Source: a virus. From it: a stretch of DNA of 21,232 nt. Positions 1 through 7,309 of this stretch are shown here, in pieces; positions within the stretch are counted from its first letter, which is position 1, and each line of letters starts with the position of its first letter. The position numbers and the translations under genes are program-made. The notes below the pieces were generated by a model, which was not told the DNA's origin, did not search any database, and saw only the letters and a list, made by a program, of their open reading frames with translations. Where the stretch lies: the IMG/VR virus record IMGVR_UViG_3300049736_000151, positions 1 to 21,232 of that record, one strand, 5' to 3'.

Positions 1-3000
1 ACGTTAACAGTTTGAGCAGCACTAACCTCTTTACCTTTTTTAGTACCTGTTTTAGCTATATCATATAGTAGTTTTGGATTTAAACCAAAAGCTTCTCCCC
101 ATGCTTTAGCTAATTCAGGACCTGGTCTCAATGATTTGTAATCCATAGACGCAAGGTCTAAAGCTATATTGTCTTTACCTATTGCCTCTATTAGTTTACC
201 CATAACAGAAGGATCTGTAAACTTTAAATCTTTAGGATCTGTTAGTTTTACTTCTCTAGTTGTTTTAGCATCAAAGTCTTTAGTTGTTTCAGCCATAACA
301 GACTGAGCCTCTCTGCTATCAAGATCTCTACCAAATAAATCTCCTTCTTGTCCTAGTCTTTTTAATATATTACCAAGTCTACCACCTCCAAAATTACCAC
401 CACCAAACAAGGCTTGTCTAGCGTATGCACCAAACGGAACATCTATATTTTCTTTACCTCTTTTTAAGTAAGTGCTAAGTATCTTATCATATATCTCTGT
501 GCCAACCTCCATCTCAAACATCTCTCTAGTAATACCTAAGCCTTCTTTAAACTTTGTGTTTATAAACTCCTGTATTAAACCTTGGTTGTTTTCATATACC
601 TTACCTATAAGATCTGTTTTATTACCTGTTCTCTCAAACTCTTCAAAAGCTTTTTTGTTTTCGTTAGAAATATCTTTTGATCTTTGATTTAACTCTCTTT
701 GAGCAACCTTATCTATACCTAAAGTTTCACCAGTCTTATAGTCTATAAGTTTCTTTCCGTTAAACTCTATGCCTTCAAACCTATTCATTAACTTAGGACT
801 GTAATTACCTTTAGCAAAATCTTGCCCTAACCTTTGCATGAACCTAATAACAGCATCTGGATTGTTTAACTTAGGTAATACATTTTGCAACGCAGTACCT
901 TCTAAAGCTTTTTCTAAAAAAGTAGTAATGTTTTGTTTTAAACTACCAAGTACCCCACTGTCAAGTACTCTTTGCTTGTTCTCAGGTCTTTGTAGTAAGT
1001 CTAATAAGTTAGCATTAAACTCTTCAAAAGTAGAACTTTTATCTTGAGTTTTTTCGTAAGCTTCTTTTATGGCCTCAGACAAATTGTCTATCTTAGTTAT
1101 TTCACCTGTTCTAGGATCTATAGATTCAAACTTCATTTTAGACACAGACTTAGCTAGCATGTCTTGTAGTGCTTTTTGCACGCCAACATCTTTAGCAAAC
1201 ATCTTACGCATAACAACATGATAAATTTCATGAGGCAAAGTACCTTCATTCATTTTAGATACATCAACACTTACGTGTAGTTTTCCATTACGAGTTGTTA
1301 CAGCAGCTGCTTCACCTGGTCCTAGTTTCATACCTCTACCATTTGTAGAGACTGTCATATTGAAAGCAGGTTCACCACCATTTTCTTTCATATAACTTCT
1401 GTTAAACCTTTCTAATAAACCTTGAGTATCTGCAGCTAATATATTTTTATCTAAAAATCTTTCCCTGTTTTCAGCTACTCTTATTTGTTTTATTAATTCA
1501 TTTCTTAATTGAAATTGATCACCAAGTTGCTCTGTGGTTTCTCCTTTTTCTAATCTACTTGTTATTTCTTTATCTGTTCTTAATAGTAAATTCCTTTTTG
1601 ACTGTACACTTAATCTTCTATCAGCTTTATTAGTATGGGTTAAACCTATTATACTGAACTGTAAAACCTCCATTAAAGTATGTTTAGCCCAGTCTTCCAT
1701 GTCTCCATACTTTTCTTCTACAAAAGTATCAAATTCTTTTTTGTTTTGCGCCGATGCTATCATAGCTTCTAATGGAGCCGCTGTTTGTGCACCAGCTGCA
1801 CCACCAAGACCTGAGTATAAACCTTTTTCCAAAGCGGTATTCATTGCAGATGCTCCGGCAAAACCTTTAAAAAGATTAGTAGGTAGTATTTTTCTCATAG
1901 CGTGACCACCAACTACAAAACCAAAACCAGCCCCAGTAGGCATATCTACACCAAACAATGGATCTAATAAAGCCATTTTACCTTCCTCTTGAAGTCCTTG
2001 TATAATTAAAGCTTGTGCTTTATTAAATGCAGTACCGGTAACTTTTGTTAGTCCTTTTGACTTAGAATAAGCATCTATAGTCATTTTAGCTTTCTTTGCT
2101 CTTGCAGCTACTATAGCTTGTGACAATGGTTTAACAGAGTTTTTACCAGCATTAGCCAAATAAGTAACATTTCTTAATTTACTTAAATAATTACCTATAC
2201 CTAAGGTTGTACCCATACCTCCAGTAGCGTAAGTAACAACACCAAGCTCTGCTAACATAGGAACAAAACCTCCTAGCCCAGTCCAAAACTGTTCTCCAAA
2301 ACCTTCTTCAAAAGAATCTAATTGCTCTGCAGACATGGTAAAAGGATCTTGACCTTCATCTAATGTTGTATTTATTTTATCCAACAAAGCCTCAGCATCA
2401 TTCAAATCATCTCTATCTGTTCTAAATAAATAATCTCTTCTAAAACTACCTGGACCAAACTCACCTTGACCAGGCAAAGCATCTAATACACCTGCTACAA
2501 AATTACCGCCCTGACTAACTATATCGTTAGCTTTTATAGAACCTGGATCTACATTTAATAAGTATAATTGTTTCCAAGCAGCGTGTTCTGTAGATAATCT
2601 TCTTTGAGTCTGTCTTGTGTTTTCTACATAACCAGCTAAATCGCTTATAGTTATAGTAGCTTCACCTGATTTACTTTCAGGTTTAGATATAATTATTTCA
2701 TCTGTAGCAAAACCAGGTTGTACTGCCATCAAGTCTTTTAGGGTAACTCCTTTTATAACCCCTTCTGTTGCATACTCTGAAGTTGTTTCCCTGCCTTTAG
2801 TATCAATCATAGAATAACCTCTATCAAATAATTTTTCGGCTAATGGTGAACCTTCTTGCAAGAATCCAGCTTTTATTTTAATATCAAACTTTTGAGTATT
2901 TATATCATTTTGAAATCCACTGAATTCAGCTAAGTGTATTCTATAATCGTTTTGTATTGTTTGAAAATCAGATGTATCTAATTTCTTTTTTAATTCTACT

Positions 3001-4295
3001 TTAGCTATGTTATAATCTTCTGTTAAGTCAACCACTTGTATACCACCTATTTTAGCAAGACCTTTGGTTGTTCTGGTTCCGTCTGGTGCAAACAAAAATT
3101 CAGCATCTCTATCTACTACGGTTCTTAGTATTAAATTGCTGGCTTTTATAGACTTTTCTAATTCATCTGTTAAGTCTCCTGTTGTAGAGTTTTCTAAACC
3201 ACCTGTTGGTTCGTTTAATAAGTTTTGTATTTCTCTTATTCTATTATTTAATTGAGCTAACTGCTTTTCTTCAGGATCAGTTATACTTTGTATGTGTTGT
3301 AGCTTTTCTCTATTACTTGCTTCCAACCAATTACCAGCATCTTGAAGAGGTTTAACATATTTTTTTATAATATTATAATTGTTCATTTCAACCTCTCTAG
3401 TAGCTACTTGTTGTAGCATTCTATCTACTATAGCATCTGGTTGAGAACCTGTTAAACCTACATCTTCTGGATTTATACCTCCAAAAAAACCAGATCCAGA
3501 AACACTTCTATTGGCAGCGTAGTTTTCAATAAGGTTTTTTCTCATGTAATCTCTAAAGCCATCTTTATCCATTAACGAGGTAATCATCATTGTTGGATCA
3601 TAAGCTATATCTTCTTCATTAGCAAAATCATAACTTAACTGCTTTAAGTTAATAGCTATAGAACCTTCAAAGTCATCAATATTTTTTTCATTTTCTATGT
3701 TTAATTTTTCATCAAAATTATCTTTAAGAAAATTATTTATTAACTTTTGACTATCATCAACTTGGTTGTTTAAACTACCAGTAAAATCTAATCCAGAAGC
3801 TGCTGTTATCATATCGCTTGGACTAAGTTCTGTTGTCCTTACTTTTATAGTATTACCATTTAAAGCTGTTATACTTATATTGTTTTTGTCGTAATCAAAT
3901 TCAAAGCCTCCATTTACACCACCATACATTTGAGAGTAAGCCGATGCTATGTCTTTGTTTGATTGACTTTTAAATTCTGGAATATTAAAAATAGTACCGT
4001 AGTCTCTATTTTTAGGTAGCTCAATTTTTACAACTGCATTCTTTTTTGCACGAGCCTTCGCAAGCCTGTCTAATTGTGTATCTCCAACCGAAGCTGTGCC
4101 TACCGAATCTAATTCCATATTCTCGGATGTTACCGGATCCACCAGTGCTACAGCCACATCCTCTGTTGCAACACTGTCTGCTTTTTTTAACGTAAAGCCT
4201 AGTCGTTTAGCTTGAGCCTCCCAATCATCACCGTATTGAGATTTGAATTTATCAGCAGATATTTCTCTGCCATTTGCATCTACATATATATCCAT
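1..4295 (-). CDS. Giant putative ejection/internal virion protein with HEIYH metallopeptidase motif (C-terminus cut off)
   Basis: The frame is open from the ATG at 4295 to the left edge, giving 1431 whole codons with no stop, so the C-terminus lies outside the window. The start MDIYVDANGREIS follows an A/T-only leader 13 bases after the upstream stop. The N-terminal part, to about residue 660, is hydrophilic and mixed helical. Residues about 668-717 and 772-852 are Gly/Ala-rich and hydrophobic, like membrane-active parts of ejection proteins. Residues 1019-1028 read TLPHEIYHVV, a zinc-peptidase HExxH signature with His1022, Glu1023 and His1026; Glu1091/1092 in TFEEFNANLL could supply a third ligand. 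The rest is charged and helical. Size, position at the end of the virion block and composition suggest a packaged protein injected with DNA, like T7 gp16 or large polyvalent phage proteins. I see no RNA polymerase DxDGD motif in the visible part. Frame certain; role inferred. Confidence 0.85.
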   Translation of the reverse strand, partial: MDIYVDANGREISADKFKSQYGDDWEAQAKRLGFTLKKADSVATEDVAVALVDPVTSENMELDSVGTASVGDTQLDRLAKARAKKNAVVKIELPKNRDYGTIFNIPEFKSQSNKDIASAYSQMYGGVNGGFEFDYDKNNISITALNGNTIKVRTTELSPSDMITAASGLDFTGSLNNQVDDSQKLINNFLKDNFDEKLNIENEKNIDDFEGSIAINLKQLSYDFANEEDIAYDPTMMITSLMDKDGFRDYMRKNLIENYAANRSVSGSGFFGGINPEDVGLTGSQPDAIVDRMLQQVATREVEMNNYNIIKKYVKPLQDAGNWLEASNREKLQHIQSITDPEEKQLAQLNNRIREIQNLLNEPTGGLENSTTGDLTDELEKSIKASNLILRTVVDRDAEFLFAPDGTRTTKGLAKIGGIQVVDLTEDYNIAKVELKKKLDTSDFQTIQNDYRIHLAEFSGFQNDINTQKFDIKIKAGFLQEGSPLAEKLFDRGYSMIDTKGRETTSEYATEGVIKGVTLKDLMAVQPGFATDEIIISKPESKSGEATITISDLAGYVENTRQTQRRLSTEHAAWKQLYLLNVDPGSIKANDIVSQGGNFVAGVLDALPGQGEFGPGSFRRDYLFRTDRDDLNDAEALLDKINTTLDEGQDPFTMSAEQLDSFEEGFGEQFWTGLGGFVPMLAELGVVTYATGGMGTTLGIGNYLSKLRNVTYLANAGKNSVKPLSQAIVAARAKKAKMTIDAYSKSKGLTKVTGTAFNKAQALIIQGLQEEGKMALLDPLFGVDMPTGAGFGFVVGGHAMRKILPTNLFKGFAGASAMNTALEKGLYSGLGGAAGAQTAAPLEAMIASAQNKKEFDTFVEEKYGDMEDWAKHTLMEVLQFSIIGLTHTNKADRRLSVQSKRNLLLRTDKEITSRLEKGETTEQLGDQFQLRNELIKQIRVAENRERFLDKNILAADTQGLLERFNRSYMKENGGEPAFNMTVSTNGRGMKLGPGEAAAVTTRNGKLHVSVDVSKMNEGTLPHEIYHVVMRKMFAKDVGVQKALQDMLAKSVSKMKFESIDPRTGEITKIDNLSEAIKEAYEKTQDKSSTFEEFNANLLDLLQRPENKQRVLDSGVLGSLKQNITTFLEKALEGTALQNVLPKLNNPDAVIRFMQRLGQDFAKGNYSPKLMNRFEGIEFNGKKLIDYKTGETLGIDKVAQRELNQRSKDISNENKKAFEEFERTGNKTDLIGKVYENNQGLIQEFINTKFKEGLGITREMFEMEVGTEIYDKILSTYLKRGKENIDVPFGAYARQALFGGGNFGGGRLGNILKRLGQEGDLFGRDLDSREAQSVMAETTKDFDAKTTREVKLTDPKDLKFTDPSVMGKLIEAIGKDNIALDLASMDYKSLRPGPELAKAWGEAFGLNPKLLYDIAKTGTKKGKEVSAAQTVN

Positions 4296-4308: not shown

Positions 4309-6168
4309 TTAAAGGTTTTCTAATGCTACTATTTCTAATTCTTTCTGTATATAATCTTTGTCTGCTTTGCTTAATGGTAAAGAATATTTTGTTTTGCCCA
4401 TTCCAGGTACTGTTAAAGCTAATTGATTAAAATTAGTATCATCAATTTCAAATCCTTCAATTTGATCTGTCAGTTCTTGTATACTCATTAGTTTACCTTT
4501 TACATTTATTTTTTTATTTAACAAACTAGGTATACCCTCATCATCTTCTAACGCTGATAGGTTATTTAAGATATCTTGAGCAACATTTGTAGAAGCATTT
4601 TCATTAGGATCATATTCAACAGAGCTAAAGTCTCTACCTTCTGTTAAACCTAATATTCTTTTTAATTGCACAGCTCCTCTACTGTTAATATCTCCTTTAG
4701 GTATATAAAGTTCTTGAACTATGTCTTTAAAATCACCGTTAGCCAATGGTTCTGATTTAGTTACTGTGTAATAATTAGCAGCACCTCCTCTAGATATTTT
4801 AATATTATTCATTTCTGAAACTTGAGTTAAGTCTCCAGAGTTTATAGCTTTATCAATAGTTATATTATTGGCTATTGCTTTTCTTTCTGCTTCTGTTGTT
4901 GTACCACCACTAGACTTGCCTTTTCCATCTCCAGTTTGTGTTTCATTTTTAGTAACTAATGGAGTGTCTTTATAATATATTCCACTAGCTGGATCGTCTG
5001 ATTTTAAACCTAGTGTTCCTAGTGTTTGATCTATCAAAATTCTAGACATTCTAGCTTTAATCTCTTGATCGACTGTGCGTTCTCCACTTGTAACAGCCTC
5101 ACTGTTTTCTACTACTTTTAAAAATTCTCCATAACTTTTAGGTCCTGTTTTACTATCCAGCATACCTAAATTATATTCATAAAAGTTTTTAGCATCATTT
5201 AAAGAATTCATAGCACCGGCAACTTTTTTATTTGCTTCTTGAATCATTCTAGGTAAGGGCCCTATATCTGGTAAGCCTAAATTATAAGTAGTTCTTGTTT
5301 GGGCTGTAGAAGTTGTATCACTTCTTTTTCTTTTATTAACAGTATCAGAAGTAACTGTTTGTTCTTGATTTGTTATTAAATCCTGATTTAAACCACCGTT
5401 GCTGGTTATTAAATTAAAATTATCAGGTCCTAACATGGCTTGAAACTCTTGTGATATTTGAGGTATTTCCTGTATAAAATCATTGTCATCACTATCGTCT
5501 AACTCCATCCAAGCGTTAGCTGATATTGTTCTTGTAGGCATAATATTGCCATTACCATCTTTACCACTTACTTGTAAAAATAAATCATTTTTATCTTTAT
5601 CATAAGTTAAAGCTATTTTAGCACTTGGCATTTTACCAGACATCGCGTTTATTAACCATTGATTTGCTTCTGGTTCATACTGAGCAGAATCACCTTGCAA
5701 GGCTATTGTTTTACCTATATTAGCGTTTTGTTCCTGCCAATACGTTGTAACATCGTCCCAGCTTGATGCAAAGTTAGTTGTTAAGTTTAACAAGTTTTGA
5801 TAATTAGCTATTTCTTGTTTAGCCTCTTGTCTTTTTTTGTCATCACTAAAATCTGTCATTAGATACATTTGAGCCGCTGAAGCCACATTTATTCTATCTC
5901 TTAATATAGCTGTTACCTCATTGTCTAAGCCGTCAGGTTTTTCTATTTTATCTAGCACCTGAAGAGTTTTGACTTGGGCCATGTCAATATCATACTGCAT
6001 TTTCTGCATGTTAGCTATTTGATTCTGACGATCTCTTTCTTTTTGTAATCTTACCTTTTCTCTATTTGCTCTCTCTTGTTCTAACAAGCCTGTTGCTTTA
6101 TTGTAAGAATCAAAATAGGAATTTACTGGACTACCGCCCGATGGACCCGCTGGGTTTTCGTAACTCAT
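4309..6168 (-). CDS. Putative internal virion (ejection) protein, 619 aa, coiled-coil N-terminus
   Basis: This 619-residue protein starts MSYENPAGPSGG after an A/T-rich leader and lies 17 bases after the stop of the small Gly/Ala-rich protein. Residues about 25-75 are a highly charged Lys/Arg/Glu/Gln stretch with heptad character and likely form a coiled coil. The middle is mixed and acidic (for example ELDDSDDNDF). A low-complexity Gly/Ser/Thr/Lys linker lies near residues 406-430 and is followed by a compact alpha/beta-looking C-terminal third. There is no signal peptide, transmembrane helix or recognisable catalytic motif. It sits between the small and giant proteins of the ejection cassette, the place where podoviruses keep their middle-sized core protein (T7 gp15 is the functional analogue by position). 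No sequence family was recognised, so the role rests on context. Confidence 0.8.
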   Translation of the reverse strand: MSYENPAGPSGGSPVNSYFDSYNKATGLLEQERANREKVRLQKERDRQNQIANMQKMQYDIDMAQVKTLQVLDKIEKPDGLDNEVTAILRDRINVASAAQMYLMTDFSDDKKRQEAKQEIANYQNLLNLTTNFASSWDDVTTYWQEQNANIGKTIALQGDSAQYEPEANQWLINAMSGKMPSAKIALTYDKDKNDLFLQVSGKDGNGNIMPTRTISANAWMELDDSDDNDFIQEIPQISQEFQAMLGPDNFNLITSNGGLNQDLITNQEQTVTSDTVNKRKRSDTTSTAQTRTTYNLGLPDIGPLPRMIQEANKKVAGAMNSLNDAKNFYEYNLGMLDSKTGPKSYGEFLKVVENSEAVTSGERTVDQEIKARMSRILIDQTLGTLGLKSDDPASGIYYKDTPLVTKNETQTGDGKGKSSGGTTTEAERKAIANNITIDKAINSGDLTQVSEMNNIKISRGGAANYYTVTKSEPLANGDFKDIVQELYIPKGDINSRGAVQLKRILGLTEGRDFSSVEYDPNENASTNVAQDILNNLSALEDDEGIPSLLNKKINVKGKLMSIQELTDQIEGFEIDDTNFNQLALTVPGMGKTKYSLPLSKADKDYIQKELEIVALENL

Positions 6169-6185: not shown

Positions 6186-6908
6186 TTAACCTTTTGGTGC
6201 AAATGGATTACCCATGCTTCCGGCTATACCACCTATAGCTCCAAACAAAGCGCCTGTTGCGGCTTCTCTAGCTCTACCGGCTTCTCTTTTTTCACCGTAT
6301 GCTCTATCAGCAAGACCCGCTACTCTATTCATTTTAGCAACCTCGCGTGATTCAACAGTGTTGAATTTAAACGCTCTACCTTGAGCATCTGCTTGTTGCA
6401 TTCTTTGACCTTCTGATATATTAATGTTTTGTATTCTTTGACCTTCAGCCATTTTCATTTGCTGCATTTGTGACTCTCCAGCCGCCCTCATTTTTTCATT
6501 TTGAGCTTCTTGAGATTCAATACTAGCTGCAACACCTTTCTTACTTTGTAAAGCTGCTTGAGCTAAAGCTGTAGCACCACCGGCACTTGCACCAGTGGCT
6601 CTTAACGTATCAAGAGTATTAGCTAAAGATATATCAGCCTGTTCAGCTTGCATTTCTGCTGCCTGAGTTGCAACACCTAAATTAGCATAAGGGTTTGTTA
6701 TCATGCTAGATAAATTCTCTGCTAAACCGCTTAGGTTAGTAAAGTTATCATATGGATTTATAGCAGGCTGTCTGCTATCCTCCAAACTTTTTAACTCTGC
6801 CTCTCGGCGTTTTTGCTCACGCGCGGCACGTCTTTGAGCTCGTCTGGCTCTTCTACCAGCACCTATCGCTCCGACTGCGCCAACAACGCCTTTAGCTACT
6901 CCTCCCAT
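6186..6908 (-). CDS. Putative small internal virion (ejection) protein, Gly/Ala-rich ends
   Basis: The protein has 240 residues and no Cys or Trp. Residues 1-18 are a Gly/Ala/Val hydrophobic segment (MGGVAKGVVGAVGAIGAG). Residues 19-38 are strongly basic (RRARRAQRRAAREQKRREAE). The middle is a long Ala/Gln/Glu/Met-rich helical stretch that includes a short repeat, EGQRIQ...EGQRMQ. The last 25 residues return to a Gly/Ala hydrophobic segment (ATGALFGAIGGIAG). This layout is typical of small ejected proteins of podoviruses such as T7 gp14, which is thought to insert in the outer membrane and start the DNA channel; that parallel is functional, not a demonstrated homology. The start is 2 bases after the acetyltransferase-like gene's stop, so the two are translationally close. 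The next gene is the coiled-coil protein. Ejection role is likely but inferred from composition and place. Confidence 0.82.
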   Translation of the reverse strand: MGGVAKGVVGAVGAIGAGRRARRAQRRAAREQKRREAELKSLEDSRQPAINPYDNFTNLSGLAENLSSMITNPYANLGVATQAAEMQAEQADISLANTLDTLRATGASAGGATALAQAALQSKKGVAASIESQEAQNEKMRAAGESQMQQMKMAEGQRIQNINISEGQRMQQADAQGRAFKFNTVESREVAKMNRVAGLADRAYGEKREAGRAREAATGALFGAIGGIAGSMGNPFAPKG

Positions 6909-6910
6909 AA

Positions 6911-7309
6911 TTATGCATATTTGTATATTATAGAGTGCTTATCTTTAAGCACGCTGTATTTTAATTTTTTTACCTTACTTATAATACCTTCCTCTTGAGA
7001 CGTGGCCCAAACAAACTTACAGCCAATGCTTAAAGCGTGGTTTACCATGTAGTCAATTAATTCGGTTATTATAGTGTTTCTGTCTTTTTCTCTATACTCT
7101 TTGTTAGATATAACAAAATCTATATAAGCTATTCTAGCATTTGTAAAGTATAAATATCCCGCCGCGACAGGCACGTTATTTTTAGTAGCAATATAACCAC
7201 CAGTGCTGTCATTCGGTAAATAATCAGGATCAGGTATGGGCTGTCCCCAGTCTAACCACCACTGACTTATAGTATTAAAGTCAGCTTCTGTAATTCTTTT
7301 TATTTTCAT
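6911..7309 (-). CDS. GNAT-like acetyltransferase-family protein, 132 aa
   Basis: The 132 residues follow a compact GNAT layout. A short N-terminal helix carries Trp17, Trp18 and Trp21 (QWWLDWG). A beta hairpin (GGYIATKNNVPVAAGYLYF, about 37-55) and the central strand YIDFVISNKEYR (about 62-73) come next, then the helix expected to bind acetyl-CoA (75-90) and a C-terminal beta region ending in IIYKYA. The usual RxxGxG/A pyrophosphate loop is degenerate: the matching place reads R-E-K-D-R-N-T, without glycines. Small GNAT-like proteins with a WxDWG start are, from memory, common in phage structural regions, but their substrate is unknown. The gene sits between a tail gene and the ejection genes, with 10-base and 2-base spacings, so it is co-transcribed late. 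It may modify or be part of the virion. Fold call fairly sure; catalytic activity uncertain because of the loop. Confidence 0.78.
   Translation of the reverse strand: MKIKRITEADFNTISQWWLDWGQPIPDPDYLPNDSTGGYIATKNNVPVAAGYLYFTNARIAYIDFVISNKEYREKDRNTIITELIDYMVNHALSIGCKFVWATSQEEGIISKVKKLKYSVLKDKHSIIYKYA

Follow-up and report, generated by a model that had tools for sequence, protein, structure and literature searches.

A predicted Glu-zincin domain in the giant terminal late protein of a short-tailed phage

The giant protein that ends the late operon of the window, as we call the whole stretch of viral DNA analysed here (21,232 nucleotides), almost certainly carries a Glu-zincin metallopeptidase domain at about residues 945-1110 (residues 927-1192 as aligned and folded; 720..1517, minus strand). 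It is a hitherto unannotated case of a known theme, the zincins in polyvalent proteins of phages (Iyer et al. 2017; PMC5512222), and the source is an uncultured marine phage, short-tailed and related to phages of Flavobacteriia. Taken as a whole, the explanation that we favour, with some reserve, is that of a Glu-zincin within an ejected giant virion protein which cuts the giant protein itself.

The HEIYH motif and its conservation

The minus-strand open reading frame 3..4295 encodes 1431 amino acids and is open at the end of the contig, an IMG/VR record of 21,232 bases. The full-length giant protein has 2909 amino acids in a close relative (L002), which shares 96% identity with the window protein along its 1431 residues. 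As the initial annotation had read it, TLPHEIYHVV occupies residues 1019-1028 of this frame (window 1212-1241), and HEIYH (His1022-Glu1023-x-x-His1026; 1218..1232, minus strand) falls within the interval 1190-1265 marked there. Motif, alignment and structural model agree in predicting zinc ligands and a general base for this element, which is the sole HExxH in the 1431-residue frame. The supposed fit to the classical zinc metallopeptidase signature was borne out, as the decapeptide satisfies the strict PS00142 pattern. In composition shuffles of the frame any HExxH was found by chance in 0.4% and the full pattern in 0.02%, in agreement with the earlier argument that the flanking residues lower the odds of a coincidence.

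A search with the whole protein led to six IMG/VR relatives. HExxH and the glutamates of EEFNA, whose loss from close homologues had been named as evidence against a peptidase, are kept in all of them that cover the region (L006 stops short of it). When the conserved C-terminal module served as the query, at least 498 relatives were matched, 80 of which were kept. HExxH is present at the equivalent place in 77 of 80 complete, non-redundant giant frames, 76 of them with exactly one copy, and the shuffle expectation was 0.41. Its distance to the shared C-terminal module, which follows downstream, has a median of 986 residues and a range of 801-1243. The exceptions show HExxxH (L041 and L056) or EELFH (L037). 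L037 and the incomplete L025 both retain the zincin domain with EELFH in place of HExxH, the first histidine being replaced in each.

In an alignment of 72 sequences with 11-97% identity to the window protein, the only invariant columns were His1022, Glu1023, His1026 and Glu1092. The rows had been chosen for HExxH alone, so that the invariance of the first three residues follows from the choice while that of Glu1092 does not, with the caveat that an aligner can favour the pairing of glutamates. The initial annotation had proposed that Glu1091 or Glu1092 (window 1020-1025) completes the site. Glu1092 (1020..1022, minus strand) is Glu in 72/72 and in 70/70 rows, Glu1091 in just 43/70; because only the former is conserved, the third ligand of the zinc is probably Glu1092 and not Glu1091. 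The structural protein gp18 of Elemovirus, which lies outside the profile, also has a Glu aligned at this column. A possible active-site residue is Tyr1080 (1056..1058, minus strand), which is conserved in 60 of the 62 rows that have a residue at this column.

Between the window protein and its closest relative, L002, residues 1005-1110 differ by 20 synonymous and 0 non-synonymous changes, and dN/dS over all 1431 residues is 0.094. Judged from these substitutions, the zincin core is under strong purifying selection.

Fold and family searches

An AlphaFold2 model of the domain reached a pLDDT of 80.0 and a pTM of 0.78. It comprises a helix (residues 950-972), three strands (979-983, 997-1002 and 1005-1011), a helix carrying HEIYH (1019-1033) and a helix carrying Glu1092 (1086-1101), which is the zincin order of a helix, three strands, the HExxH helix and the Glu helix. 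For the strand just ahead of the HExxH helix, predicted as LHVSVD (residues 1006-1011; 1263..1280, minus strand), alignment columns 1008 and 1010 are hydrophobic and column 1011 is N or D. An earlier AlphaFold2 model, built on 6 close sequences, was of poor quality (pLDDT 57.6), and its fold search was uninformative. The fold search with the domain model gave no match at E<0.001, and its lists hold unrelated proteins too. The weak matches include MATCAP at the top, 4l7a, SPRTN, PprI and M61, and also large phage structural or polyvalent proteins with a Foldseek probability of up to 1.00. The structure prediction proposed at the outset thus yields a modelled zincin element order, and no significant fold match.

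Searches of Pfam, PHROG and PDB with the whole window protein returned nothing significant, and the domain profile matched PDB chains only weakly, the best being an M48 peptidase (E=0.056). PF18818 (MPTase-PolyVal), which is one Pfam family for the MPTase domains of polyvalent proteins and not a criterion of PMC5512222, was matched in 0/6 records of the family at E<=10. PF06114 (peptidase family M78, IrrE) gave no significant match, with weak ones in 6 of 72 members (best E 0.0097). Neither the window DNA nor the giant protein nor the C-terminal module had a match in the phage collection. The profile comparison with metallopeptidase and polyvalent-protein families, as suggested earlier, gave weak matches (M48 and M78). 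The original claim of a zinc-peptidase-type domain gains its support from the conserved ligand set, the order of the predicted fold and the purifying selection. The family is large and is recognised by neither Pfam nor PHROGs.

Operon context and C-terminal modules

Every window gene from the portal to the GNAT gene has a collinear homologue in Elemovirus, in MW202828 and in Cellulophaga phage phi40:1. The products gp99, gp100 and gp101 of phi40:1, which hold the slots of the 240-aa, the 619-aa and the giant protein, are virion proteins by MS/MS. By this synteny it is highly probable that the giant protein is located in the virion. No HExxH and no match to the profile was found in phi40:1 gp101, phi18:3 gp123 or the Panino giant protein; the MS/MS evidence therefore comes from a protein without the zincin. 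In agreement with the initial annotation, which spoke of a terminal virion protein, the motif lies in the product of the gene that closes the virion operon. In several relatives, too, no large gene of the operon comes after the giant gene, and genes on the opposite strand follow either at once or behind a few small genes.

Two neighbouring proteins are candidate ejection partners, the 619-aa protein encoded directly upstream of the giant gene (4309..6168, minus strand), by its position in the phi40:1 gp100 slot only, and the 240-aa protein (6186..6908, minus strand), by a weak blastp match to phi40:1 gp99 (E=0.003). The structural operon also contains a GNAT acetyltransferase gene (6911-7309, minus strand; Pfam E=0.00031), the phi40:1 homologue of which, gp98, is likewise a virion protein by MS/MS. 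The giant protein of MW202828 (L011; 3859 aa, same operon slot) has two HEFGH motifs, neither of which matches the zincin profile. When the L002 protein was scanned for hydrophobicity, no 19-residue segment reached 1.4, so that classical membrane helices are unsupported.

Other enzymatic domains are fused to the zincin in the giant protein of relatives; this part of the protein lies beyond the window. Residues 2073-2258 of the L002 protein match a PHROG family of polynucleotide-kinase/HAD type (E=7.6e-6). At residues ~2096-2340 of the L003 protein the HAD-type phosphatase (DFDDTLA) is interrupted by a P-loop kinase-like stretch (GGPGAGKT), and the two make up a polynucleotide-kinase/phosphatase-like pair. 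The same kinase insert occurs in the giant proteins of L026, L031, L087, L094, L096, L098 and L102, and L064 has a different insert within its HAD-type phosphatase. The giant gene is represented by two overlapping frames in L005 (8749-8810) and L003 (12532-12548), the parts of which align to adjacent segments of the relatives; we rejected natural processing as the source of these splits, which look like frameshifts or sequencing errors.

Proposed role and comparison with known systems

Zinc binding, proteolysis, packaging, injection and self-cleavage are all steps that we infer. His1022, His1026 and Glu1092 would bind zinc, with Glu1023 as the base. The zincin would be one of several domains in a giant virion protein whose gene closes the late operon. 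This protein would be packaged and then ejected together with the DNA, as the N4 virion RNA polymerase (vRNAP) is. The zincin may cleave the giant protein, either in cis or from one copy to another, while still in the head or on entry, and the cut would set C-terminal modules, among them the HAD-type phosphatase, apart from the N-terminal part. We rate self-cleavage by the zincin at about even chances, and self-processing is modestly favoured because the zincin is near-universal within the family. Points against the whole explanation are the lack of significant family and fold matches, the origin of the virion evidence in a protein that has no zincin, the EELFH of L037 and L025, the lack of any cleavage site found, and the packaging of N4 vRNAP in uncut form (PMC5512222). 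It is possible, if doubtful, that the entire family in marine phages, with at least 498 relatives in one collection, cuts its giant protein on entry and thereby frees effector enzymes, such as the polynucleotide-kinase/phosphatase-like module, into the host.

A less probable reading takes the zincin for an injected effector directed, soon after entry, at a protein of the host or of a resident prophage, for example a defence protein or a repressor. Repressor cleavage is an activity of the M78/IrrE-type family, to which the weak matches in 6/72 members point, as does PprI among the weak fold matches. A role against host proteins is permitted for polyvalent-protein zincins by Iyer et al. (PMC5512222), who proposed self-processing or host targeting and left the choice open. 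However, nearly all relatives have the domain, and its spacing from the C-terminal module is roughly constant (801-1243 residues), which a task inside the giant protein would explain equally well or better; none of our results points to a host target. Self-processing and host attack could be told apart directly in cultured relatives, such as Elemovirus on Flavobacterium sp. BAL314.

We regard it as improbable that the zincin fold lacks catalytic activity and persists for the sake of the structure or packaging of the giant protein. Such a role has a parallel in N4 vRNAP, which is packaged unprocessed and needs the region around its zincin for encapsidation (PMC5512222), and the domain persists in the two relatives with EELFH. 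On the other hand, even very divergent sequences preserve all of the ligands, and purifying selection on the core is strong. That HEIYH is a chance motif of a long protein is extremely improbable. In favour of chance, the window protein matches no curated family, but the shuffle odds within the frame, the motif in 77/80 relatives where 0.4 were expected, the independent invariant Glu1092 and the coherent predicted fold all speak against a coincidence.

Zincins are the commonest domain of phage and plasmid polyvalent proteins, where they are grouped in 12 clades (PMC5512222). The core described there, with an N-terminal helix, a three-stranded sheet, the HExxH helix and a later Glu helix, has the element order of our model. 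As in those proteins, the domain is one of several in a giant late protein, and the HExxxH variant reported among these zincins recurs in some relatives of the window protein, whereas PF18818 matches none of the six records of the family.

N4 vRNAP (gp50) is likewise a giant virion protein that ends a late operon, accompanied by virion proteins of 16.5 kDa and 66 kDa. Its C-terminal zincin resembles the window domain in a strand, HELVH and a later NEF glutamate; a profile comparison of the two gave a probability of 84% and P=7e-6 over ~33 columns, which comprise the strand and HExxH only. Unlike in N4, the family search found no polymerase domain in the window protein. Phage phi40:1 gp101 has the same terminal slot, is present in virions by MS/MS and is related to Elemovirus gp18, but is shorter (1691 aa) and has neither HExxH nor a profile match. 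Elemovirus gp18 itself (NC_055854), a structural protein of Flavobacterium phages, is longer (3694 aa) and otherwise of very low sequence similarity, yet it holds the same slot of the collinear operon and carries the same zincin (VAHEIFH, 45.7 bits).
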